Source: Candidatus Dadabacteria bacterium
Lineage (GTDB): Bacteria; Desulfobacterota_D; UBA1144; Nemesobacterales; JADFKM01
DNA length: 22,028 nucleotides
Direction: 5' to 3'
NCBI GenBank assembly: GCA_022564935.1
Contig: JADFKM010000036.1
Coordinates: 1-22,028 of the forward strand
A program made the translations under genes and the position numbers. Shown here piece after piece: positions 1-22,028 of this stretch. Each line of letters begins with the position of its first letter. The stretch's first letter is position 1. The notes under the pieces are model-generated. The model did not search any database and was not told the origin of the DNA. It was given only the letters and a program-made list of their open reading frames with translations.

Positions 1-1
1 G

Positions 2-925
2 AAAGAGGATGACAAAACTTCCAAGAAACACCGCAGCCAGGAAGAAATAATGGGGGAGAAGATAGAGAACTTCGCTTCTTCTTTTATTGAAAGCATTGCC
101 GAGAAGCGCAAGAGAAATACGCAGTGGGCTATAGAGGCCGTTAGGAACAGCGCTTCGATAACTTCCACGGAGGCCCTCAAGAAAAAGGTCATCGACATCA
201 TCTCCCGTAACCGTACGGAGCTGTTTGAATCCATAGACGGCTGGGAGGTTGAGCTTCCCGATACTAAGCGCAAGCTTGCGATAAAGGGCGCAGTAGTTAA
301 AAGGCTGGATATGAATGTCAAGCAAAAGATGATAAACATCCTGAGCACTCCAAACATAGCTTTTCTCCTGCTCTCCTTGGGCTCGCTTGGCCTCACGATG
401 GAGATATTCAAGCCCGGCATGATATTTCCGGGCGTCGTAGGGGCTATATGCTTTCTAACGGGGTGCGTATCCCTGCAAATCCTTCCTTTTAATTACGCCG
501 GACTTGCCCTGCTGGTGTTTTCTATAGTACTGTTTGTGTCGGAGTTGTTCGTCACCAGCTACGGTCTTCTGGCCGTTGCGGGCCTGGTGAGCTTCATCAT
601 AGGGGGGGTGCTTCTGTTCGACACCCCCGAATTCGATGTTAGGGTCAGTATGGACGTTATCCTGAGTGTTGGGGTACCCCTTGGATTGTTCTTCCTCTTA
701 ATAGCCTATTTCGTGTTCAGGGCGCAACAGCTTGCCCCCGCAATGGGACAGGAGGCGCTCATCGGCAAGCACGGCGAAGCGATGACCGATATAGTAGGGG
801 AAGGAAAGGTATTTGTTTTCGGGGAGTACTGGAACGCCACCAGCGAAGACGCCATACCCAAGGGCTCCAAGATCGAGGTGCTGGGAGTTGAAGATGGCAT
901 GATAATGACAGTGAAGAAGTTGTGA
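2..925 (+). CDS. NfeD long-form membrane serine protease, 3' part (5' end outside window)
   Basis: The frame is open to the window edge, so 307 residues are visible and the N-terminus is missing. The first ~75 residues match the end of the ClpP/crotonase-like protease domain of long NfeD proteins: a lysine in GEKIENF that may correspond to the catalytic Lys, then a [18 protein letters not shown] segment typical of this domain. Next come several hydrophobic helices (about residues 110-240 of the visible part). The last ~65 residues form the soluble OB-fold NfeD domain ([30 protein letters not shown]). An ATG at 50 is in frame but has no ribosome binding site and lies inside the protease domain, so it is not the likely start. 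The family is membrane-bound and is encoded with stomatins, as here: a slipin starts 25 bp downstream. In archaeal homologues the protease cleaves the stomatin partner. The catalytic serine lies upstream of the window and cannot be checked. Confidence 0.88.
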
Positions 926-950
926 AATCCATTCAAGGAGGAGTAAACAA

Positions 951-1715
951 ATGTGGATAGTGATACTTATTGGAGTAATTTTTGTGATCGCTTTCTCGGG
1001 AATCAGGGTCTTAAACGAGTATGAGAGGGGGGTTATTTTCAGGCTGGGTAGGATAAGGAAGCCCAAGGGAGCGGGCCTTACATGGATTATTCCCGGGATT
1101 GACAGGATGGTCAGGATCAGCCTCAGGATAATTACCATGGACGTGCCCCCGCAGGACGTCATCACCAAGGATAACGTGTCCGTCAAGGTCAACGCCGTAG
1201 TCTATTTCAAGGTGGTCGATCCGGTAAAAGCCGTCATTCAGATCGAGAATTACCTCTACGGCACCTCGCAGCTCGCCCAGACCACTCTGCGGAGCGTGCT
1301 GGGTCAGGTCGAGCTGGACCAGCTCCTCTCCGAAAGGGAGACCCTCAACATGCAGCTCCAGTCAGTGATCGATAAGCAGACAGACCCCTGGGGCATAAAG
1401 GTCAACCTTGTTGAGGTCAAATACGTAGACCTCCCGCAGGAGATGCAGAGGGCAATGGCCAAGCAGGCGGAAGCCGAGAGGGAGAGGCGTGCCAAGGTTA
1501 TCGCCGCCGAGGGTGAGTTCCAGGCTTCTACGAGGCTTGCCGAGGCTTCCGATATTCTCTCACGGAACCCGATGTCGCTTCAGCTCAGGTTCCTTCAGAC
1601 CCTGTCCGAAGTCGCTTCGGAGAATAACTCGACAATTGTTTTCCCCATCCCGATCGACATTCTCACCCCGTTTATGCAGACTCTGCAGAACAAGGTTAAA
1701 AAGGACGAAAAGTAG
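951..1715 (+). CDS. Stomatin/prohibitin-family slipin (SPFH domain)
   Basis: This 254-residue protein has an N-terminal hydrophobic anchor (about 2-17) followed by an SPFH/Band 7 domain (about 20-175) with the family hallmarks [28 protein letters not shown] and [17 protein letters not shown] charged Ala/Glu/Arg helix (about 170-195) should form a coiled coil used for oligomerisation. A hydrophobic C-terminal patch ([15 protein letters not shown], about 227-241) corresponds to the oligomerisation and cleavage region of archaeal slipins. The start is supported by an AAGGAGGAG site 6-7 nt upstream of the ATG. Slipins form membrane-associated ring assemblies and microdomains. The NfeD gene 25 bp upstream is the standard operon partner and probably its processing protease. 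The exact physiological role is unknown. Confidence 0.93.
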
Positions 1716-1773
1716 TAACCCGTCCCTCAAAGCAGGTTAATAATATACAAACCCTCTCGATCCGGAGTGCAGT

Positions 1774-3492
1774 ATGAGTAGACCCTTTATGGCAGTAATG
1801 GTGATTATTGCCGTGTTTTTTTTACTGTTTTCATGCTCTAAGGATGAAGAGGGTGCTGAGGGATCAAGCGGCGGCGGCAGAAAACAAGCTCAGGCCGACG
1901 GCAAGGATTCGAAACGAGACGGAAAGGAAAACAGATACTCAATATACAAAGATTCCCCCCCCGTGGACGGCGACTGGCTGATTTACAACCTGAGCGCCGA
2001 GCCGGGCACCCTGAACCCCATTCTCGCCACAGACGCATATGAGAGCACGGTAAACGGGGGGAACGTGTACGAGACCCTCGTTAAGCGAGACAACAAGACC
2101 CTCGAGATAGTTCCCCTCCTGGCGGAGTCCTGGGATATATCCCAGGACAAGCTCTCCTACACCTTCCACCTCAGAAAGGACGTCAAGTGGCACGACGGAG
2201 CTCCGTTTACGGCCCGCGACGTTCTGTTTTCATTCGAGAAGATTTTTGACCCCAAAATAGATTCCGCCCATTTGAAGAACTATCTCAAAGACATAAAAAA
2301 GGTTGAAGCCCTCGATGACTACACGGTCAGGTTCACGTATTCGAAGCTGTATTTCCTCGCCCTCGAGGTTTGCGGAGGAATGCCTATTGTACCACAGCAC
2401 GTCTTTAAAATAGGTGATTTCAACTCCAATCCGGCAAACAGAAAACCCATCGGCACCGGCCCGTATAAATTCATAAGATGGGCAACGGGCGAAGAGATAG
2501 TCCTCGGGAGGAACGAAGACTACTGGGGAGAAAAACCCCACATCATGAGGGTGGTTTTCAGAATTATCACCGACTCCACCGTTGCCCTGCAGGTGCTCAA
2601 GCGGGGCGAGCTTGACCGGATGGGCCTTACCCCCATACAGTGGGAAAAGCAGACCGGCTCCGATTCTTTTAATGAGGAGTTCAACAAGCTCGGCTACTTT
2701 ACGCCGAACTACAGGTTTATCGGCTGGAACATAAAAAAGCCCTTCTTCTCCGAGGCCCGCGTCAGGAGGGCAATGACCCACCTGCTGAACAGGCGTCTTA
2801 TCCTCCAGAAGATACTCTACGACCTCGGCGAAGTGGTTACCAACCCCTTTTATATAAACAGCCCGGAGTACGACAAGGCCATCAAGCCCTACCTCTACGA
2901 CCCGGAGAAGGCCAAATCGCTCCTTGAAGAGGCCGGATGGGTAGACACTGACGGAGACGGACTGAGAGATAAAGATGGAGTTAAGTTCGAGTTCGAGTTC
3001 CTTTTGCCGAACAACTCGGAGACGGGGGAGAAGGTAGCCACGATCCTCAAAGAAGAGCTTGACTCCGTCGGGATAAACATGAAGATAAGGAAAACGGAGT
3101 GGGCGGTGTTCGTACAGAGGCTCCAGCAGCGCAAGTTCGAGGCCGTAACGCTCGCATGGAGCATGGGTGTGGAATCCGATCCCTATCAGATATGGCACTC
3201 CTCGCAGGCCGAGCAGGGCTCCAATTTCGTGGGCTTCGAAAACAAGAGGGCCGATGAGCTTATCGATGAGGCTAGAGGTGAGTTCGATAGAAGCAAGCGG
3301 ATTGAATTATATCGGGAGTTTGCGGAGATAGTGCATGCGGAGCAGCCTTATACGTTCCTGTTCTGCGGCAAAGCTACGGTTGCTGTTAGCAGGAGGTTTC
3401 AGGACGTGGTGGTGTATCCACTGGGTCTCGACCCCCTAGAATGGTTTGTGCAGAAGCCCCTGCAAAGGTACGGCACCGCGTTGGTGCATTAG
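1774..3492 (+). CDS. ABC transporter substrate-binding lipoprotein, family 5 (peptide/oligopeptide class)
   Basis: This 572-residue protein starts with a lipoprotein signal: a hydrophobic stretch and the lipobox LFSC with Cys21 as the acylation site. Residues ~22-57 are a Gly/Ser/Lys/Asp-rich tether. The family 5 solute-binding fold follows, with the landmarks NLSAEPGTLNPI (~72-83), LAESWDISQDKLSYTFHLR (~116-134), KWHDGAPFTARDV (138-150), IGTGPYKF (226-233) and, near the C-terminus, ESDPYQIWHSSQ. A DTDGDGLRD segment (391-399) looks like a calcium loop but also occurs in other family members. The start is supported by GGAG 6 nt upstream. The gene heads a five-gene importer, so it should capture the ligand at the outer face of the membrane and pass it to the two permeases. 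The substrate cannot be read from sequence: peptides are most likely, though nickel or other small ligands occur in this family. Confidence 0.93.
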   Translation: MSRPFMAVMVIIAVFFLLFSCSKDEEGAEGSSGGGRKQAQADGKDSKRDGKENRYSIYKDSPPVDGDWLIYNLSAEPGTLNPILATDAYESTVNGGNVYETLVKRDNKTLEIVPLLAESWDISQDKLSYTFHLRKDVKWHDGAPFTARDVLFSFEKIFDPKIDSAHLKNYLKDIKKVEALDDYTVRFTYSKLYFLALEVCGGMPIVPQHVFKIGDFNSNPANRKPIGTGPYKFIRWATGEEIVLGRNEDYWGEKPHIMRVVFRIITDSTVALQVLKRGELDRMGLTPIQWEKQTGSDSFNEEFNKLGYFTPNYRFIGWNIKKPFFSEARVRRAMTHLLNRRLILQKILYDLGEVVTNPFYINSPEYDKAIKPYLYDPEKAKSLLEEAGWVDTDGDGLRDKDGVKFEFEFLLPNNSETGEKVATILKEELDSVGINMKIRKTEWAVFVQRLQQRKFEAVTLAWSMGVESDPYQIWHSSQAEQGSNFVGFENKRADELIDEARGEFDRSKRIELYREFAEIVHAEQPYTFLFCGKATVAVSRRFQDVVVYPLGLDPLEWFVQKPLQRYGTALVH

Positions 3493-3526
3493 GCCGTGTT
3501 CTGTTCGGGATTTGTTTCAACTTGAT

Positions 3527-3541
3527 TTATTCTAAGAATAA
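3527..3541. promoter_or_regulatory. Perfect AT-rich palindrome between the binding-protein and permease genes
   Basis: TTATTCTAAGAATAA is a perfect 7-bp inverted repeat around one central base. As RNA it can fold as a 6-bp stem with a TAA loop. It ends 6 bp before the permease start codon, where a Shine-Dalgarno site would be expected and none is seen. It could be an operator, or an mRNA element that changes expression between the binding protein and the permeases. The function is inferred only. Confidence 0.4.
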
Positions 3542-3547
3542 CCTGCT

Positions 3548-4549
3548 ATGAGAACCTATATCCTGAAAAGGCTGCTGCTGCTGCTACCCACGCTGTTCGG
3601 CATTACACTAATCACGTTCTTCATAATCCAGCTTGCTCCCGGAAGTCCCGTACAGGGGAAGCTTGGGCTGGAAGAGGGTGTCAGGGCCGAAGAGATAACC
3701 AAGGAGATAATGGAGCAGACCAAAAAACTGTACGGACTGGACAAGCCTATACACGTCCGCTACGGGATATGGGTCAAACAGATAGTCACTCTTGACTTCG
3801 GAAATTCTTTCAAAGACCACAGGCCGGTGATAGATAAGATTGCAGAGCGCCTTCCCGTCACTATGACCCTCAGCGTGATCTCCATCTTCCTCACATATAT
3901 GATTTCCATCCCGATCGGGATTTTCGCCGCCGTGAAGCGCGGCACCGTCACCGACCGGGCGATGACGTTCGTGCTGTTTGTGCTTTATTCAGTGCCCAGC
4001 TTCTGGATGGCTATAGTCCTTATCTACTTCCTCGGAGGAGGTGATCATTTCGACGTGTTTCCCATTTACGGCCTGCACTCTCAGGGGGCCGAGAGCTTCC
4101 CCTTCTTCAAACGGGCGCTGGATTTCCTCTGGCACATTGCGCTCCCGGTGTTTTGCCTCACCTATGCCGACCTCGCAGCCCTTTCGCGCTTCCAGAGAGG
4201 GAGCCTGCTGGAGGTGCTGCGGGCCGATTTCGTACGCACGGCCATCGCAAAGGGGCTTTCCGGCAGGGTAGTGCTCCTAAAACACGCCCTCAGGAACTCC
4301 CTCATTTCCATCGTAACCATATTGGCCTCCATTCTGCCTGCGATGATAGGCGGGAGCGTCATAATAGAGAGCATTTTCTCCATTCCTGGACTCGGCAAGC
4401 TGGGCTTTGAGTCCATTCTCTCAAGGGACTACCCCGTTATCATGGCGATCTCCACAATATCGGCCTTTCTGACCCTGATTGGCATTCTTGTCTCGGACAT
4501 AATATATGTTTTGATCGACCCCAGGATAAGCTTCGAGGGGAGGGTATGA
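3548..4549 (+). CDS. ABC transporter permease, DppB/OppB type
   Basis: This 333-residue inner-membrane protein begins with the classic MRTYILKRLLLLLPTLFG start and first helix (about 8-29). A periplasmic loop with the YGLDKPIHVRYGIW and LDFGNSF motifs follows (about 62-88). About five further helices lie near 103-129, 138-162, 193-213, 250-275 and 298-323. The EAA-type ATPase-contact loop is RADFVRTAIAKGLSGR (225-240), and IFSIPGLGKLGFESIL is the conserved motif before the last helix. It should form the translocation pore with the next gene product. No clear Shine-Dalgarno precedes the ATG, but the N-terminus aligns naturally with the family. The last 4 bp overlap the next permease gene (ATGA). 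Confidence 0.94.
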   Translation: MRTYILKRLLLLLPTLFGITLITFFIIQLAPGSPVQGKLGLEEGVRAEEITKEIMEQTKKLYGLDKPIHVRYGIWVKQIVTLDFGNSFKDHRPVIDKIAERLPVTMTLSVISIFLTYMISIPIGIFAAVKRGTVTDRAMTFVLFVLYSVPSFWMAIVLIYFLGGGDHFDVFPIYGLHSQGAESFPFFKRALDFLWHIALPVFCLTYADLAALSRFQRGSLLEVLRADFVRTAIAKGLSGRVVLLKHALRNSLISIVTILASILPAMIGGSVIIESIFSIPGLGKLGFESILSRDYPVIMAISTISAFLTLIGILVSDIIYVLIDPRISFEGRV

Positions 4550-5565
4550 ACACGGGGAGCGCACAGCAGCACAGCCGCGGGTACTGGAGGACGGTGTGGG
4601 GTGAGTTCAAGCGGGATAGGGTTGCAGCAGCGGGACTTGTCGTGATCTTGCTTTTAATCGGCGTTGCGCTGTTTGAGGACCTCATTGCGGGCAATAAGCC
4701 GATAGTGCTCAGGTGGGAAGGGAAGCTTTATTTCCCGGCTTTGGTAGATTACGCTGAGTTTGCCGACGCCGATTTTAAGCGGATGGCGAAAAGGGCTGGA
4801 GAGGGGGACTTTTTCCTGTTCCCGCCCGCCCGGTTCAGCCCTACCGAGAACGATCTCATGGTCGTTTTGGAACCCCCCTCTTCGACCCATTTTTTCGGCA
4901 CGGACGATAGGGGAAGGGACGTTTTGAGCAGGATTGTGCACGGCACCAGGATTTCCCTTTCCGTAGGGTTCGTGGCTGTGGGAATATCCATGCTGATAGG
5001 AGTTTTTCTCGGCGCAATTGCGGGGTATTACGGCGGGAGGACGGATTTTATCGTCTCGAGGCTCTTTGAGGTGATGATGACGTTCCCGGTCTTCTTTCTC
5101 ATCCTTACAATTCTCGCATTCCGCAACCCGAGCATATACAATATCATGATAGTTATCGGGGCCACATCGTGGACGGGTATAGCCCGGCTGGTAAGGGGAG
5201 AGTTCCTAAGGCTCCGGAAAAACGCATACGTGGAAGCGGCGGTGGCTCTCGGAGCAGGTGACCTCAGGGTGATGATGAGACACATGCTTCCAAACGGCAT
5301 CGCCCCGGTATTGGTCTCAGCCACTTTCGGCGTTGCGGGAGCGGTGCTTGTGGAATCGGCCCTCAGCTTCCTGGGATTCGGCGTCCCGCCCCCTCAGCCG
5401 AGCTGGGGAGACGTGCTTTCGCAGTCGAAGAAGTACGTGGATTTTGCCTGGTGGCTCGTTCTATTTCCGGGACTTGCGATCTTTATTACCGTGACGTCGT
5501 TTAATCTGGTGGGGGAGGGGTTCCGAGACGCTTCCGACCCGAGGCTCAAAGGCAGGGGGTTCTAA
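4546..5565 (+). CDS. ABC transporter permease, DppC/OppC (YejE-like) type
   Basis: This 339-residue permease partners the upstream DppB-type subunit. The N-terminal OppC_N motif (GYWRTVWGEFKRDRVAAAG) leads into helix 1 (about 28-46). The family motif FGTDDRGRDVLSRIVHGTR (117-135) precedes helix 2. The EAA loop is NAYVEAAVALGAGDLRVMM (226-244), and the C-terminal motif SALSFLGFGVPPPQPSWG (271-288) is typical. Between helix 1 and the GTDDRGRD motif is a long periplasmic stretch (about 50-115) containing KLYFPALVDY, which recalls the microcin-C/YejE branch rather than short DppC proteins. GAGGGGAGGG just upstream and the ATGA overlap suggest translational coupling with the first permease. Confidence 0.93.
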   Translation: MNTGSAQQHSRGYWRTVWGEFKRDRVAAAGLVVILLLIGVALFEDLIAGNKPIVLRWEGKLYFPALVDYAEFADADFKRMAKRAGEGDFFLFPPARFSPTENDLMVVLEPPSSTHFFGTDDRGRDVLSRIVHGTRISLSVGFVAVGISMLIGVFLGAIAGYYGGRTDFIVSRLFEVMMTFPVFFLILTILAFRNPSIYNIMIVIGATSWTGIARLVRGEFLRLRKNAYVEAAVALGAGDLRVMMRHMLPNGIAPVLVSATFGVAGAVLVESALSFLGFGVPPPQPSWGDVLSQSKKYVDFAWWLVLFPGLAIFITVTSFNLVGEGFRDASDPRLKGRGF

Positions 5566-13347: not shown

Positions 13348-16050
13348 ATGACCGAGAAAAATCCGTTTGACACAATCTCAACTCTAAATACCGGCTATGG
13401 CGAGGTTAAGTACTACTCTCTCGAGCGTCTGGGAAAGTCTGTAGGGGTGGATATATCCTCACTGCCGTTCTCTGTGCGTATTCTGCTTGAGAACGCGCTC
13501 AGGAACATGGATTCACCCCACGTCAACGAAGAGGATGTCGTATCCCTCGCACGGTGGAAGCCGTCGGTCTCCGACGCTTCGGAAATTCCCTACAAGCCCG
13601 CAAGGGTTATTCTTCAGGATTTTACCGGCGTCCCATGCGTGGCCGACCTGGCCGCGATGCGCTCGGTAGTCGAGAGGATGGGAGGGAACACTGAGCGCAT
13701 CAACCCCCTCGTGCCCGTCGACCTCGTCATCGACCACTCCGTCCAGGTCGATTTCTTCGGCACCCCGGAGGCGTTCGGCAAAAACGTCGAGCGCGAATAT
13801 GAGAGGAACCTCGAGAGGTACGCTTTCCTCCGGTGGGCGCAAAAGGCCTTCGATAAGTTCAGGGTCGTACCTCCGGGCACCGGGATTGTCCATCAAGTAA
13901 ACCTCGAATGCCTCGCAAGGGTCGTTCTGCTCACGGAGACGGACGGAGAAATGACGGCATATCCGGACACCCTCGTGGGCACAGACTCCCATACCACCAT
14001 GATCAACGGCCTCGGTGTTCTTGGCTGGGGAGTTGGCGGAATAGAGGCGGAGGCGTGCATGCTCGGCCAGCCCCTTTACATGCTCGTTCCTGAAGTCGTC
14101 GGCTTCAAATTGACCGGCAGCCTCGGTGAAGGTGTGACCGCTACCGACCTCGTTCTGACGGTGACTCAGATGTTGAGGCAGAAGGGAGTGGTCGGGAAGT
14201 TCGTTGAGTTCTTTGGAGCGGGGCTTAACAGGCTCGGGCTTGCCGACAGGGCTACGGTAGCCAACATGGCGCCTGAGTACGGCGCTACGATGGGGTTCTT
14301 CCCGTTGGATGGGGAGACCCTTCGTTATCTGAGCGGCACCGGCAGGGAAAAGATGCACGTCGAGCTCGTCGAGCTGTATAGCAGGGCGCAGAGCCTGTTC
14401 AGGGCGGACGAGGCGCCCGACCCGCTTTATTCGAGCCTGCTTGAGCTCGATATGGGCGATGTCGAGCCCTCTGTTGCGGGGCCCAGCCGTCCTCAGGACA
14501 GAGTGCCTCTCAGGGAGCTGAAAAGCTCGTATGGGGCGTTGATAAGGGAGAGGAATGGAAGCGAGCAGGAGATTAACAGGGCTGTAAGTGTAGATTTGGG
14601 GGGTAAGAAAGTCCAGGTTAAAAACGGATCGGTCGTTATTGCCGCAATCACTAGCTGCACGAACACGTCCAACCCTTCAGTTATGATAGGCGCCGGTCTT
14701 CTGGCCAAAAAAGCGGTCGAGGCCGGCCTCAGGGTGAGCCCCGCCGTAAAGACAAGCCTTGCGCCCGGCTCCGCCGTAGTTACCGAGTATTTGACCAGCT
14801 CCGGCTTAATGCCGTATCTCGAGAAGCTTGGGTTTAACCTGGTCGGCTATGGCTGCACCACTTGCATTGGGAACAGCGGGCCGCTTCCCGAGCCCGTTGA
14901 GCGGGCCGTGAGGGACGGCGACCTTACGGTGGCCGCCGTGCTGAGCGGGAACCGCAACTTCGAGGGGAGGATACAACCTCTTGTAAAGCTCTCCTACCTG
15001 GCCTCACCCCCTCTAGTGGTGGTATATGCCCTGGTGGGCACGATCGACATAGACGTAGTCAACGACCCTCTTGGAAAGGGCAGAGATGGCGGGGACGTGT
15101 ACCTTCGCGATATATGGCCCACACACGATGAGATTAAGAGCACGATGGAGAAAACACTCAACCCCGAGATATTCAGGGAAAGGTACTCCGAGGTGTTCGG
15201 GGGGGATGAGAGGTGGAGGGCTCTCCGGGTCCCGGAGGGCAGCCTCTACGAGTGGGACCCCGAGTCTACCTATTTACGGGAGCCGCCGTTCTTCAAAGAT
15301 TTCGGACTCGACGCGCCCCCGCTCGAGGACATAAAGGGGGCCCGCATGCTCGCTCTTCTCGGCGACTCGGTTACCACAGACCATATTTCCCCCGCAGGGG
15401 CCATACCAAAGGACGGCCCGGCAGGCAAATATTTAATACAGCGCGGAGTGAGCCAGCGCGAGTTCAACAGCTTTGGCTCGAGGAGGGGCAACCACGAGGT
15501 GATGATACGCGGCACTTTCGCCAACATAAGGATTAAAAACTTCATGGCGCCCGGAACCGAGGGGGGCTGGACGAAGCTCCAGCCCGATGGGCAGGTCATG
15601 TCCATTTACGATGCAGCGCAGGCGTATAAGGAAAGGGGGACTCCGCTGATCGTCGTCGGAGGTAAGGAGTACGGAAGCGGATCCTCGAGGGATTGGGCTG
15701 CCAAGGGAACCATGCTTCTGGGCGTAAAGGCCGTCATTGCCGAGAGTTTTGAGAGGATACACAGGAGCAATCTCGTGGGTATGGGCGTCCTGCCACTGCA
15801 GTTCGCAGAGGGGGAGAACGGCGGAACGTGGAAGATGGACGGCACCGAGGAGTTCTCGATCGATGGGATCGCCCGTGGACTTGAGCCCAAGAAGAGGCTT
15901 ACTGTACTTATGAAGCGCTCAGGCGGCTCTCTGGAAAAAATCGAGGTGATTTGCAGGCTCGATAGCCCCGTTGAGGTGGACTATTTCACTAATTCAGGAA
16001 TCCTGCAGACCGTTTTAAGGGACATGTTGAGATCGAATGGAGGCGAATAA
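13348..16050 (+). CDS. acnA: Aconitate hydratase A
   Basis: This 900-residue monomeric [4Fe-4S] enzyme isomerises citrate to isocitrate in the TCA cycle. The cluster cysteines are Cys437 (ITSCTNTSNP) and Cys503/Cys506 (GYGCTTCIGNSGP), the same numbers as in animal IRP1, to which AcnA is related. Other blocks are VILQDFTGVPCVADLAAMR, DLVIDHSVQVD, PDTLVGTDSHTTM and LGDSVTTDHISPAG. The C-terminal swivel domain has YGSGSSRDWAAKG with the catalytic Ser/Arg and AESFERIHRSNLVGMG. It is full length. Only a weak GGGTG site precedes the ATG. It is likely monocistronic: a wide gap precedes it and an intrinsic terminator follows. AcnA-type enzymes can lose the cluster and bind mRNA in some bacteria; whether this one does is unknown. 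Confidence 0.97.
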   Translation: MTEKNPFDTISTLNTGYGEVKYYSLERLGKSVGVDISSLPFSVRILLENALRNMDSPHVNEEDVVSLARWKPSVSDASEIPYKPARVILQDFTGVPCVADLAAMRSVVERMGGNTERINPLVPVDLVIDHSVQVDFFGTPEAFGKNVEREYERNLERYAFLRWAQKAFDKFRVVPPGTGIVHQVNLECLARVVLLTETDGEMTAYPDTLVGTDSHTTMINGLGVLGWGVGGIEAEACMLGQPLYMLVPEVVGFKLTGSLGEGVTATDLVLTVTQMLRQKGVVGKFVEFFGAGLNRLGLADRATVANMAPEYGATMGFFPLDGETLRYLSGTGREKMHVELVELYSRAQSLFRADEAPDPLYSSLLELDMGDVEPSVAGPSRPQDRVPLRELKSSYGALIRERNGSEQEINRAVSVDLGGKKVQVKNGSVVIAAITSCTNTSNPSVMIGAGLLAKKAVEAGLRVSPAVKTSLAPGSAVVTEYLTSSGLMPYLEKLGFNLVGYGCTTCIGNSGPLPEPVERAVRDGDLTVAAVLSGNRNFEGRIQPLVKLSYLASPPLVVVYALVGTIDIDVVNDPLGKGRDGGDVYLRDIWPTHDEIKSTMEKTLNPEIFRERYSEVFGGDERWRALRVPEGSLYEWDPESTYLREPPFFKDFGLDAPPLEDIKGARMLALLGDSVTTDHISPAGAIPKDGPAGKYLIQRGVSQREFNSFGSRRGNHEVMIRGTFANIRIKNFMAPGTEGGWTKLQPDGQVMSIYDAAQAYKERGTPLIVVGGKEYGSGSSRDWAAKGTMLLGVKAVIAESFERIHRSNLVGMGVLPLQFAEGENGGTWKMDGTEEFSIDGIARGLEPKKRLTVLMKRSGGSLEKIEVICRLDSPVEVDYFTNSGILQTVLRDMLRSNGGE

Positions 16051-16190: not shown

Positions 16191-17426
16191 ATGTCAGAAG
16201 GAGAAAAGATCACCGTAAATGAGGAGAAAGGAACACTCAATGTTCCTGACAACCCGATTATCCCGTTTATCGAAGGGGACGGCACCGGGCCGGACATCTG
16301 GAGAGCGTCGCAAACCGTTTTTGACGCCTCGGTGAGCAAAGCTTACAACGGCAACAGAATGATAGTGTGGCATGAGATCCTGGCCGGCGAGAAGGCATAC
16401 AACAAAACTAAGAACTGGCTACCCGATGAAACTCTCGAGGATATAAGGACGTATATCGTCGCCATCAAGGGCCCGCTTACTACGCCTGTGGGCGGCGGTA
16501 TCAGGAGCCTCAATGTGGCTCTCAGGCAGATCCTGGACCTCTATGCCTGCGTTCGCCCCGTTAGGCATATAGAAGGCACCCCTTCCCCTGTAAAAAGGCC
16601 GGAGCGGCTGGATGTGGTGATATTCAGGGAAAATACCGAAGATGTTTATGCAGGCATTGAGTGGGAATCGGGCTCCGCCGATGCCGCGAAGCTCATAGAG
16701 TTCATCAAAGACAATTTTGGTAAGAGCATCCGCTCCGACTCAGGGATAGGTATAAAGCCGATCAGTATTTTCGGTACGAAGAGGCTTGTCAGAAAGGCTA
16801 TCAAATACGGCCTCGAGAACAACCGCAGGAGTGTAACCCTCATGCACAAGGGAAACATCATGAAGTTCACCGAAGGGGCGTTCAGGGAGTGGGGCTACGA
16901 GGTTGCCGAGGACGAGTTCCCCGATGTGACGGTTACTGAGGACGAGATGTGGGATAAGCATGGCGGCAAGCAGCCCGAAGGCAGGCTCCTCATCAAGGAC
17001 AGGATCGCAGACAGCATGTTCCAGCAGGTCCTCACGAGGGCATCTGACTACGATATCATAGCCACTACCAACCTCAACGGCGATTATCTCTCCGACGCCT
17101 GCGCCGCTCAGGTCGGGGGTCTCGGCGTCGCGCCGGGAGGCAATATAGGCGACTTCTACGCTGTGTTCGAGGCCACCCACGGCACGGCTCCCAAGTATGC
17201 GGGCCAGGACAAGGTCAATCCCGGCTCCTTGATCCTCTCGGGGGTAATGATGCTCGAGTATATGGGATGGAAAGAGGCCGCAGACCTTATAGTGAAGGCG
17301 ATGGGGAGGACGATAATGGAAAAAACCGTAACTTATGACCTGGAGAGGCTGATAGACGGTGCCACATTGCTCAAGTGCTCGGAGTTCGCAGACACCATCG
17401 TAAAGAACATGGATCAATTTGTTTAA
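16191..17426 (+). CDS. icd: NADP-dependent isocitrate dehydrogenase
   Basis: This 411-residue homodimeric enzyme of the E. coli Icd type oxidises isocitrate to 2-oxoglutarate and CO2. Substrate residues are Ser106, Asn108, Arg112 and Arg122 in and after [13 protein letters not shown], with Lys93 in [14 protein letters not shown] specificity is indicated by Lys335-Tyr336 in [11 protein letters not shown] and by Tyr382 and Arg386 in [10 protein letters not shown], matching the NADP-binding residues of E. coli Icd. [10 protein letters not shown]-like residues (147-155) and [15 protein letters not shown] (217-231) are standard. Ser106 corresponds to the serine phosphorylated by AceK in enterics; no aceK is in the window. 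It is followed after 37 bp by mdh and may be co-transcribed with it. Confidence 0.96.
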
Positions 17427-17463: not shown

Positions 17464-18405
17464 ATGAGCAGAGCTAAAATTTCCGTCATAGGAGCTGGCC
17501 ACGTCGGCGCCACCACGGCTCTCAGGCTTGCGGAGATGGAGCTTGGGGACGTAGTGATGGTGGATATCGTTGAGGACATGCCCCAGGGTAAGGCGCTCGA
17601 CCTTATGGAGATGGCCCCGGTCGTTGGATATGATGTGAGCATAACAGGAGCTAACGGGTATGACGATACCGCAGGCTCCGACATAGTGGTTATCACTTCC
17701 GGTATTCCCAGAAAGCCCGGGATGAGCAGAGACGACCTCCTGGCCACTAATGCGAAGATAGTCAAGCAGGTCACCGAAGAAGTCATTAAAAAATCTCCCG
17801 ACACGATATTGATAGTTGTCTCAAACCCCCTTGACGCTATGGTTTACGTCGCCCACAGGGTAAGCGGCTTTCCCCGCGAAAGGGTCATGGGGATGGCCGG
17901 CGTGCTTGATTCCGCTCGGTTCAGGGCCTTCATTTCAATGGAGCTTGGGGTTTCTGTCGACAACATTCACGCATTTGTGCTCGGCGGGCACGGAGACGAT
18001 ATGGTACCCCTCGCCAAATACACCACGGTTGCCGGAGTGCCGATAACGGAGCTGATGCCCCCCGAAAGGGTAGAGGCTCTTATAACGCGCACCCGCCAGG
18101 GAGGGGCGGAGATAGTAAAGCTGCTTAAAACAGGGAGCGCTTACTACTCCCCTGCGGCCTCGGCTGCGCAGATGTGCGAGGCCATATTAAAAGACCAGAA
18201 GAAGATACTGCCGTGCTGCGTACTGGCTCAGGACGAGTACGGCTTAGACGGAGTATTTGTTGGCCTTCCCGTGAAGCTCGGCTCCGGAGGGGTGGAAGAG
18301 GTGTTCGAGATAGAGCTTGAAGACGGCGTTAGAGACGAGCTTCACACCTCGGCAGGCCACGTCAAAGAGCTTTGCGACAAGGTGCATGAGCTGATAGAAA
18401 TTTAA
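17464..18405 (+). CDS. mdh: Malate dehydrogenase (LDH-like type)
   Basis: This 313-residue NAD-dependent enzyme interconverts malate and oxaloacetate. It has the dinucleotide motif [11 protein letters not shown] (9-19), an acidic residue after the second strand (Asp34) that favours NAD, and substrate arginines Arg83 and Arg89 in [14 protein letters not shown]. An Arg at this loop position points to malate rather than lactate. Asn121 (VSNPLD), Asp149 and Arg152 (GVLDSARFR) and the catalytic His176 ([10 protein letters not shown]) complete the active site. AGGAGG lies 7 nt upstream of the ATG. The position between icd and the succinate dehydrogenase genes fits a TCA-cycle role. Confidence 0.96.
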
Positions 18406-18539: not shown

Positions 18540-19268
18540 ATGGCGCAGGCAGGTGTGCAGCACTCTATGACATTGAGAACCGACGCTTGGTGGGTGGCTC
18601 CCCTTGTGACTTTCGTGATGCTCAGCGCTTTTGTGGTCTATACGACCTGGAGAATTATTGAGAACCAGTACTACCTCGCAGAGCCTTACCTTTCCCCATT
18701 GTACTCCCCGCTCCTGCTCTTGGACTGGTGGCCTCTGTCCCCCGCGATTCTTATTCTATGGGCCCCCGGAGGCTTCAGGCTTACGTGCTACTACTATAGG
18801 AAGGCGTATTACCGCTCGTTCGTCTTGAGCCCCCCCGCCTGTGCCGTAGATAGGGGGAAGCCGGGGGAGTACTGTGGGGAGACGAGGTTCCCGCTGATAC
18901 TCCAGAACCTGCACCGTTATTTTTTCTACGCAGCCGGAGTTGTGCTCGTATTTCTCTGGTATGACGCGTTTAAGGCCTTCGTTTTCGATGAGAAGTTCGG
19001 CGTCGGCGTGGGCTCCATTGTCCTGCTTTTAAATGCGGCTCTTCTCACCATGTATTCGCTGTCGTGTCATTCGTTCCGTCACATGATTGGCGGGAAGCTT
19101 AACGTTTTTTCGAAATGCCCCACACGGTTCATGCTGTGGAAAGCTGTGAGCGGTTTTAACGAGCATCACATGTTCTGGGCGTGGTTCAGCTTGATAGTGG
19201 TCTCTTTAACCGACCTGTATGTGCGCCTTGTAGCATCCGGGGCAATACAAGATGTGAGGTTTATATGA
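18540..19268 (+). CDS. sdhC: Succinate dehydrogenase membrane anchor subunit (single, five-helix type)
   Basis: This 242-residue hydrophobic protein precedes the flavoprotein and iron-sulfur subunits in the order C-A-B. About five membrane segments are seen (17-37, 64-84, 127-149, 155-177, 211-231). Usual complex II anchors have two small three-helix proteins or one ~220-residue five-helix protein with haem histidines. This one has an unusual set of cysteines (Cys83 in LTCYYYRKAYYRS, Cys101, Cys112, Cys176, Cys193) and histidines (His125, His177, His181, His209, His210). The size, gene order and CYYYRKAYY-like signature fit the mycobacterial Sdh1 (type F) anchor, in which a Rieske-type [2Fe-2S] cluster replaces haem. 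The anchor role is well supported by context; the type F assignment is from memory and needs alignment. It overlaps sdhA by 4 bp (ATGA), implying coupling. Confidence 0.82.
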   Translation: MAQAGVQHSMTLRTDAWWVAPLVTFVMLSAFVVYTTWRIIENQYYLAEPYLSPLYSPLLLLDWWPLSPAILILWAPGGFRLTCYYYRKAYYRSFVLSPPACAVDRGKPGEYCGETRFPLILQNLHRYFFYAAGVVLVFLWYDAFKAFVFDEKFGVGVGSIVLLLNAALLTMYSLSCHSFRHMIGGKLNVFSKCPTRFMLWKAVSGFNEHHMFWAWFSLIVVSLTDLYVRLVASGAIQDVRFI

Positions 19269-20992
19269 TGGAGATGTATGAAACTCATACCCATGACGTG
19301 ATCGTCATAGGCGCAGGGGGCGCAGGCCTTCGCGTGGCGATTGAGGTCTCGGCGCAGGGAGCCTCCGTCGGGCTCGTATGCAAATCCCTGCTCGGAAAGG
19401 CCCACACAGTCATGGCCGAGGGGGGGATAGCCGCGGCGCTTGCCAACGTGGATGCCGGTGACGACTGGGAGACCCATTTCTGCGATACGATGAGGGGAGG
19501 CAAGATGCTCAATAACTGGCGCATGGCGCAGCTCCATGCCCAGGAAGCGCCCGACAGGGTGAAGGAGCTTGAGAGATGGGGCGCTTTGTTCGACCGCACG
19601 AAAGAGGGCAGGATCATGCAGCGCGCCTTCGGAGGCCACACCTGGAAGAGGCTTTGCCACGTGGGAGACCGCACGGGCCTCGAGATGTTACGCACCCTCC
19701 AGGACAAGGGAGTTCACTCCGGAATCGACGTCTATATGGAATGCACTATTACCGATATATTAAAGGACGGAGACCGCGTGGCGGGCGCCATGGGCTACTG
19801 GAGGGAGAGCGGTAAGTTCGTGGTGTTTCCGACCAAGGCAATTGTTCTTGCCACGGGAGGCATCGGCAAGATATACAAGGTCACCTCGAACTCGTGGGAA
19901 TACACCGGAGACGGACAGTGCTTGGCTTACAGCGCAGGCGCCGAGCTAATAGATATGGAAGCCGTGCAGTTCCACCCTACCGGGATGATTTGGCCCCCTA
20001 GCGTCAAGGGTATACTCGTGACCGAGGCCGTTAGAGGGGAGGGCGGTATCCTAAGGAATTCTGAAGGGCAGAGGTTTATGGAGAAATACGACCCGGAGAA
20101 TATGGAGCTCTCCACACGCGACGTCGTCGCCCGCGCTATATACACCGAAGTTCAGGAGGGACGCGGGAGCACCCACGGCGGCGCTTACCTGGACATATCG
20201 CACAAGGACTCAGAAATTGTGAAGAGAAAGCTTCCGAGCATGTACCATCAATTCATGGACTTTGCGGATATAGACATTACAAAGGCCCCGATGGAGGTGT
20301 TCCCCACGACCCACTACATCATGGGCGGCGTTCGTGTTGAAGCGGAGACGGGACGGAGCACGGTGCCGGGCCTTTTTGCCGCCGGAGAGGTGGCCGGAGG
20401 CATGCACGGCTCGAACCGTCTAGGCGGCAATTCGCTCTCAGACCTTCTGGTGTTCGGCCGTCGCGCTGGCATGGGAGCGGCCGAGTACGCCAAGGGGGTC
20501 GATGCCGGCTCGCTGAAGATCGACGAATCGCAGATAGAGCTTAATGAAAAAGAGCTTTTAGCTCCCTTTGAGAACACAGGAGGTCAGAACCCCTATACGA
20601 TTCATCAGGAACTTCAGGATATAATGCAGGCTTATTTCGGCGTGTTCAGGACTGAAGAGAGGCTCCAGCAGGGCATTGAAGAGCTCGCAAAGCTCAGGGT
20701 AAAAGCCTCGGTGCTCACGATCGAGGGCTCCCGGATATACAACCCCGGGTGGCACCTTTGCAGAGACCTTAAATCCATGCTGATTGTCTCGGAGGCTATC
20801 GGCAGGACGGCGCTCCTTCGCAAGGAAAGCCGCGGAGCACACAGCCGTGTGGACTATCCAGACAGCGATAACGAGAATTGGGGCAAGGTAAACACGGTCA
20901 TATGCAAGCACGGAGATGAAATGAAGGTGGATACATCGCCGCTGCCTGAAATGCCCGACGAGCTCAAAAGGCTGTTTACGGAGGTCAAATAG
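19265..20992 (+). CDS. sdhA: Succinate dehydrogenase/fumarate reductase flavoprotein subunit
   Basis: This subunit oxidises succinate to fumarate with covalent FAD. The frame is open further upstream (to 19181), but that part lies inside sdhC and the FAD motif begins right after ATGATG at 19265-19270. I therefore choose 19265 (575 residues), which overlaps the sdhC stop as ATGA; 19268 is nearly as good. Visible are HDVIVIGAGGAGLR (10-23), the FAD-linking His47 in KAHTVMAEGG, HPTG with His237, Arg257 (VRGEGG), His350 (PTTHYIMGG) and Arg385 (GSNRLGGNSL), which together form the dicarboxylate site. It faces the cytoplasm and passes electrons to the iron-sulfur subunit encoded directly downstream. 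Confidence 0.96.
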   Translation: MMEMYETHTHDVIVIGAGGAGLRVAIEVSAQGASVGLVCKSLLGKAHTVMAEGGIAAALANVDAGDDWETHFCDTMRGGKMLNNWRMAQLHAQEAPDRVKELERWGALFDRTKEGRIMQRAFGGHTWKRLCHVGDRTGLEMLRTLQDKGVHSGIDVYMECTITDILKDGDRVAGAMGYWRESGKFVVFPTKAIVLATGGIGKIYKVTSNSWEYTGDGQCLAYSAGAELIDMEAVQFHPTGMIWPPSVKGILVTEAVRGEGGILRNSEGQRFMEKYDPENMELSTRDVVARAIYTEVQEGRGSTHGGAYLDISHKDSEIVKRKLPSMYHQFMDFADIDITKAPMEVFPTTHYIMGGVRVEAETGRSTVPGLFAAGEVAGGMHGSNRLGGNSLSDLLVFGRRAGMGAAEYAKGVDAGSLKIDESQIELNEKELLAPFENTGGQNPYTIHQELQDIMQAYFGVFRTEERLQQGIEELAKLRVKASVLTIEGSRIYNPGWHLCRDLKSMLIVSEAIGRTALLRKESRGAHSRVDYPDSDNENWGKVNTVICKHGDEMKVDTSPLPEMPDELKRLFTEVK

Positions 20993-21724
20993 ATGGCTGA
21001 GGCTACCATAATGGTATTTCGCGGAGAAGCTCATCAGGGCGGAGAAGAAAAGGAGTACACAGTGCCCGTTCAGGAAGGCATGGTCGTGCTCGACGCCCTC
21101 CTCTACATACAGGCCAATTACGCCGGCGACCTGGCCGTTCGCTGGAACTGCAAAGCGGCCAAATGCGGCTCCTGCAGCGCAGAGATAAACGGGAAACTGG
21201 GGCTTACCTGCAAAATGCGTATGGACAGCCTGCCTTTAGAGGAGCCCGTCAGAGTATATCCGATGAAAACCTTCCCTTTGATAAAAGACCTTGTTACCGA
21301 CGTTTCCTGGAATTATGAGATTGAGAAACGGATTCCGCCGTTTGCCCCTCCCGAGGGCGAATTGACGATGTATCAAGAAGACATAGACCGTATACAGGAG
21401 TTCCGCAAGTGTATTGAGTGCTTCTTGTGCCAGAACATATGTCATGTGCTGAGAACCCATGACAGGAAAGACAGCTTTTTCGGCCCCCGTTATATGATAA
21501 AAATAGCTGAGCTCCAAATGCACCCCCTCGATACGGTAGACCGAACCGAGTTGTTGAATGGTGACGGGGGAATGGGTTTTTGCAACATTACTAAATGCTG
21601 CACCGAGGTATGTCCCGAAAACATACAAATCACGGATAATGCGATTATCCCCCTTAAGGAAAGGGTCGCGGACAGGTTCTTTGATCCGCTACTGTGGATC
21701 TTACGTAAACTGGCGGGGAAATAG
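20993..21724 (+). CDS. sdhB: Succinate dehydrogenase iron-sulfur subunit
   Basis: This 243-residue electron-transfer subunit connects the flavoprotein with the membrane anchor. The [2Fe-2S] ligands are Cys53, Cys58, Cys61 and Cys73 in [10 protein letters not shown] and LTCKM. The [4Fe-4S] ligands are Cys140, Cys143, Cys146 and Cys207. The [3Fe-4S] ligands are Cys150, Cys197 and Cys203, in [12 protein letters not shown] and [12 protein letters not shown]. Two details differ from E. coli SdhB: Cys150 is followed by His instead of Pro, and there is an extra Cys202. GGAGG (20980-20984) lies 8 nt before the ATG, which follows the sdhA stop without a gap. Confidence 0.96.
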
Positions 21725-21788: not shown

Positions 21789-22028
21789 TTGAATATCCAC
21801 GAGTACCAGGCCAAGGCTATATTGGCGCAGTACGGAGTGAGCGTTCCCGCGGGCAGGGTGGCTTTTACCCCCGATGAAGCAGAGCAGATTGCAAAGGACT
21901 TAAATGCGGAGAAGTTTGTGGTTAAAGCACAGATTCATGCCGGAGGCAGAGGGAAGGAAGGAGGGGTCAGGCTTGCGGACAACCCGGCTGAAGTGGGTCG
22001 AACTGCCTCTGATATGCTTGGTATGCGT
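21789..22028 (+). CDS. sucC: Succinyl-CoA synthetase (ADP-forming) beta subunit, 5' part
   Basis: The first 80 codons are visible and the gene runs off the window. Starting from TTG, the protein begins [19 protein letters not shown], the diagnostic N-terminus of SucC, and contains the nucleotide-binding segment [17 protein letters not shown] of the ATP-grasp domain. With SucD (expected downstream) it converts succinyl-CoA to succinate with ATP or GTP formation, supplying the substrate of the succinate dehydrogenase encoded upstream. The rare TTG start, a strong AGGAGGAA site and a tiny upstream reading frame (21763-21792) whose stop overlaps the TTG suggest that translation may be tuned. Confidence 0.95.

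Follow-up and report, generated by a model that had tools for sequence, protein, structure and literature searches.

A type F complex II in a Dadabacterial TCA operon, at a site that different complex II types appear to have occupied in turn

Complex II types differ in their membrane cofactor, and the reason for this is unsettled, least of all settled for the enzymes that reduce low-potential menaquinone. The window, which is the whole 22,028-nucleotide stretch of Candidatus Dadabacteria DNA analysed here, carries three complex II genes inside a TCA operon (acnA-icd-mdh-sdhCAB-sucC) and raises the question of which type they encode, what cofactor the anchor may hold, and how the genes came to lie where they do. 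A sequence-only reading of the window had proposed a complex II of the mycobacterial Sdh1 class with a Rieske-type cluster in its anchor. The open reading frames bear out the gene order C-A-B and the single 242-residue membrane anchor described there, giving a complex of three subunits (Table 1), and every Cys and His position listed for SdhC is exact in the translation.

Table 1. Features of the TCA operon in the window
Feature	Position	Strand	Basis
acnA, aconitase	13348..16050	+	ORF; same position in nearly all relatives with a contig long enough
icd, isocitrate dehydrogenase	16191..17426	+	ORF; order conserved among relatives
mdh, malate dehydrogenase; upstream border of the slot	17464..18405	+	TIGR01763 above cut-off; conserved order
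sdhC, type F membrane anchor	18540..19268	+	phmmer to 7d6v_C, E 9.5e-64; fold; conservation
sdhA, flavoprotein	19265..20992	+	7d6v_A, E 1.7e-209; NF005866 above cut-off; tree
sdhB, iron-sulphur subunit	20993..21724	+	7d6v_B, E 1.1e-97; NF009052 above cut-off; Cys positions
sucC start, truncated by the window end; downstream border of the slot	21789..22028	+	sequence; phmmer to sucC

The sdhA gene starts at the ATG at 19265 or 19268 and overlaps the sdhC stop; a longer GTG-initiated frame from 19181 was rejected as an artefact of ORF listing. H47 of SdhA (in HTVMAEGG) occupies what we take to be the place of the covalent-FAD His, by analogy with E. coli SdhA. The Cys spacing of SdhB is canonical (C53/58/61/73, C140/143/146/207 and C150/197/203). 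SdhB also has an additional Cys, C202 (in CNITKCC), adjoining the third-cluster ligand C203, and an equivalent of C202 is present in 7D6V_B.

Assignment of the window enzyme to type F

When SdhC was searched against all PDB sequences by phmmer, the sole match was chain C of 7D6V, the M. smegmatis Sdh1, with about 53% identity over 232 aligned residues. The same entry gave the best PDB match for SdhA (chain A; the next match had an E-value of 1.4e-112) and for SdhB (chain B; next, 1.9e-20), and the E-values of the three 7D6V matches exclude a chance resemblance. The AlphaFold2 prediction of SdhC, made with 46 homologues (mean pLDDT 84), had a significant fold match to 7D6V chain C alone (E 1.1e-14, TM 0.84/0.78), with a Z of 22.5 as against 7.4 for the next row. 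About five anchor helices had been described from the sequence alone, and the model has five long ones (residues 19-41, 69-90, 117-145, 157-174 and 210-233) plus two short ones at 177-184 and 194-207, compared with the six helices published for class F anchors, the class of complex II that holds a membrane Rieske cluster (PMC10238741). In a tree of SdhA, the type F sequences, among them those of the window and 7D6V_A, formed one clade with support of 100/100, apart from 6LUM_A (type A), the Dadabacterial types B and D, other type-B-like proteins and one type C protein. The matches of all three proteins, the SdhC fold and the SdhA clade thus support the assignment of the window sdhCAB to type F, the class of M. 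smegmatis Sdh1, as the sequence-only reading had supposed.

The same data bear on the alternative that the anchor is of a haem type (A, B or C), with haem b bound by its His residues. For two haems, four conserved His placed at helix ends would be enough, and the middling fold matches of the model include cytochrome b6 and the hydrogenase cytochrome b, but a Z of about 7 reflects a common arrangement. Searches of SdhC against Pfam and NCBIfam matched no anchor family, including Sdh_cyt, b558 (TIGR02046) and FrdC/D; no TIGR02046 anchor was found in the source genome, and the window locus does not have the two small anchors, FrdC and FrdD, of type D. With 7D6V as the only clear relative, three invariant Cys alongside the His, and an SdhA outside every haem-type clade, we regard a haem-binding anchor as extremely unlikely and retain the type F assignment.

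Two other SdhA-like genes of the source genome, a draft of 2.0 Mb, were considered as complex II and rejected. One belongs to a type C sdhCDAB on contig C51, where positions 1-5340, of about 68% GC and carrying this proteobacterial-type operon, are joined to sequence of 52% GC. The junction falls inside a single ORF that seems to begin with a CBS domain and to continue as an aldehyde dehydrogenase (names given by reading the sequence), and the GC break within an ORF points to a chimeric contig or contamination rather than to a genuine second complex II. The other (contig C16) has the size and the nad-like neighbours of an L-aspartate oxidase.

Candidate cluster ligands and the proposed electron path

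Conservation was scored over 112 distinct SdhC sequences. C83, C101, C176, H125 and H210 were invariant, H177 was kept in 111 and H181 in 110 of the 112; the exceptions are all Asn (H177N in L023, H181N in L036 and L061), each from a single draft sequence. All seven residues are common to the window SdhC and 7D6V, and in the alignment the conserved Cys and His of the two anchors coincide. C112, C193 and H209, by comparison, vary freely and are therefore unlikely ligands, which leaves seven of the ten residues originally put forward as the ligand pool. Three Cys and four His are fully or almost fully conserved, whereas a Rieske-type cluster takes two of each, so the ligand set is not unique. 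H125 and H210 are most likely the His ligands, and two among C83, C101 and C176 most likely the Cys ligands, because only these residues never vary. In the model, C83 lies within the second long helix and H125 within the third, C176 is just past the fourth, and H210 begins the fifth, while C101 is inside an unreliable loop with a pLDDT under 50. In the M. smegmatis Sdh1 structure paper, replacement of two His ligands by Ala is said to have abolished quinone reduction.

It could still be that the window's lineage has retained the type F fold and has lost or altered the cluster, as an assembled cluster is not demonstrable from the window sequence alone. All seven conserved residues are nevertheless kept by the window SdhC, as they are by the divergent marine-type homologue from another Dadabacterial genome (G056), and we consider such a loss very improbable.

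The genomic setting suggests a function. The source genome has futalosine-type menaquinone genes (an MqnA/MqnD-like pair, PF02621), and PF02621 genes occur in 55 of the 57 genomes of the phylum; no MenD scored above the cut-off in the source genome, which also encodes haem-copper oxidase subunit I. The menaquinone genes make it most likely that the window enzyme acts as a succinate:menaquinone reductase, and together with the oxidase and the TCA-cycle neighbours they point to aerobic succinate:menaquinone reduction, the direction being our inference. The sdhCAB complex would oxidise succinate within the aerobic TCA cycle and reduce menaquinone. Electrons would leave the FAD of SdhA and run along the three SdhB clusters, [2Fe-2S], [4Fe-4S] and [3Fe-4S] in turn. 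A Rieske-type [2Fe-2S] cluster, placed at the cytoplasmic end of the bundle of SdhC helices, would then hand them on to the quinone. The presence of this Rieske-type cluster, the sequence of electron transfer steps and the quinone site are here proposed by analogy with the solved M. smegmatis homologue.

The complex II slot between mdh and sucC

What is new at this locus is the place of the genes, a complex II slot that appears to have been repeatedly refilled, the type F enzyme itself being of a known kind. We surveyed the slot in 57 genomes of the phylum, all of one class, identifying type D anchors by PF02300/PF02313 and type B anchors by TIGR02046. Type F anchors were found in 33 genomes, type B (b558) anchors in 15 and type D (FrdC) anchors in 5, and none of the 57 had two slot types; four genomes fall outside these counts (G031, G035, G033 and G055), the first two of which have type F sdhA/sdhB at contig ends. 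Regions from 47 genomes have the order acnA-icd-mdh-[complex II]-sucC-(rpoH)-dnaK, each as far as its contig extends, and the gene order around the slot is identical whichever complex II type is present.

Three families are mixed in type: F and D occur together in f4, and F and B in both f6 and f8. A tree built from the flanking icd, mdh and sucC genes recovered the given families for the most part, and on it the slot type must change at least six times. AU tests rejected trees in which the type D genomes (p 0.0096) or the type B genomes (p about 1e-94) were held together, with groups that were defined post hoc on data already inspected. In the SdhA tree, the type F sequences of the window's order form a clade of their own, and the type F sequence of G056 falls outside it, which suggests a separate acquisition. 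Vertical inheritance of the G056 type F within the phylum was rejected by the AU test (p 0.003), though its branch is long. This locus (L141, 3422-6863) is the sole type F complex II in f8, a family of small genomes (about 1 Mb); it is divergent, with an anchor of 281 aa, and its place is among sequences of other phyla.

Could three types in one slot be an artefact of assembly or binning, with no replacement in place? Draft assemblies make up most of the set, and contig C51 of the source genome supplies one real chimera. An artefact would nevertheless have to recur in 47 genomes in which both flanks are present wherever the contig allows, and it would have to account for one-contig genomes with type F (G034) and type B (G004) and for types that track genera rather than single genomes; we judge it very unlikely. 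That the slot has been repeatedly refilled in place by complex II types with unrelated anchors is well supported.

In-place displacement of operon genes is a known process. For complex II types we found no account of it in a literature search that covered papers other than the main classification paper. Among the type B and among the type D enzymes, SdhA identities are similar to those of the flanking genes, so that exchange inside the phylum and import are equally possible; one close type B outside the phylum was found, in the actinobacterial Embleya hyalina genome (L215, 65% identity). We propose, as a probable account, that the slot is exchangeable: Rieske (F), b558 haem (B) and haem-free FrdCD (D) cassettes would have been swapped at least about six times, one always being left, perhaps by recombination via the conserved flanks, on an unchanged menaquinone background.

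With one quinone pathway and Rieske, haem and haem-free versions swapped in one operon, the slot amounts to a natural experiment on the cofactor question, and, if the proposal is true, the function of the membrane cofactor becomes testable between close relatives. Taken together, we hold it highly probable that the window encodes a type F complex II that passes electrons from succinate to menaquinone, has a Rieske-type cluster in SdhC, and lies in a repeatedly refilled slot.

Comparison with known systems and the spread of type F

The M. smegmatis Sdh1, reportedly described as a type (class) F complex II by Zhou et al. in 2021 (PDB 7D6V/7D6X), and the window enzyme share a single anchor with SdhA and SdhB, the seven conserved Cys/His residues, the fold and the SdhA clade. 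They differ in that the window comes from another phylum, the loop from the first to the second helix is shorter in its SdhC, C112, C193 and H209 are T, H and R in M. smegmatis Sdh1, and the window sdhCAB sits inside an acnA-icd-mdh-sucC operon.

When 84,980 species genomes were scanned, at least 589 type F anchors were confirmed, and the best 80 of these represent Actinobacteria, Acidobacteria, Rokubacteria, NC10, Binatia, Melainabacteria, Myxococcota, Planctomycetota, Chloroflexi, Acetothermia and Dadabacteria. In the SdhA tree, the actinobacterial sequences, 7D6V_A included, are nested inside a many-phylum clade, and nothing in this tree or in the scan shows an actinobacterial origin of type F. 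The window enzyme by itself is a further member of a known, widespread family. An anchor of this kind outside Actinobacteria had been expected to be informative on the origin of type F; with at least 589 loci in many phyla, type F is not rare there, and this single genome is of little help on the question. The mycobacterial Sdh1, a tuberculosis drug target under study, is thus one member of a broad bacterial family, a fact that matters for the selectivity of Sdh1 inhibitors.

Two other type F loci have unusual surroundings. In NC10 bacterium CSP1-5, a single ORF (L042, 3696-4331) comes after the type F sdhCAB and joins in frame the first 21 sucC codons, then FrdC-like and then FrdD-like sequence; it is either an assembly chimera or a remnant of a type D cassette at this position. 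A Deltaproteobacteria draft (L025) carries an additional sdhA-sdhB pair, of a different type (about 1277-3992), directly upstream of its type F sdhCAB (from 5217 onward), on the same strand.

Type F loci of Rokubacteria, Acidobacteria, Melainabacteria, Binatia, NC10 and others share with the window the C-A-B order and the invariant residues, while in most other phyla the neighbouring genes differ from the window's. Three Rokubacteria loci (L027, L015 and L065) have icd and mdh just upstream, as in the window, and L027 and L065 also have sucC downstream, so that the slot may be common to several phyla. Within the Dadabacteria, the type B (TIGR02046 b558 anchor) and type D (FrdC/FrdD) enzymes occupy the same mdh/sucC slot as the window's, but their anchors come from other families and their SdhA is distant from that of the window.
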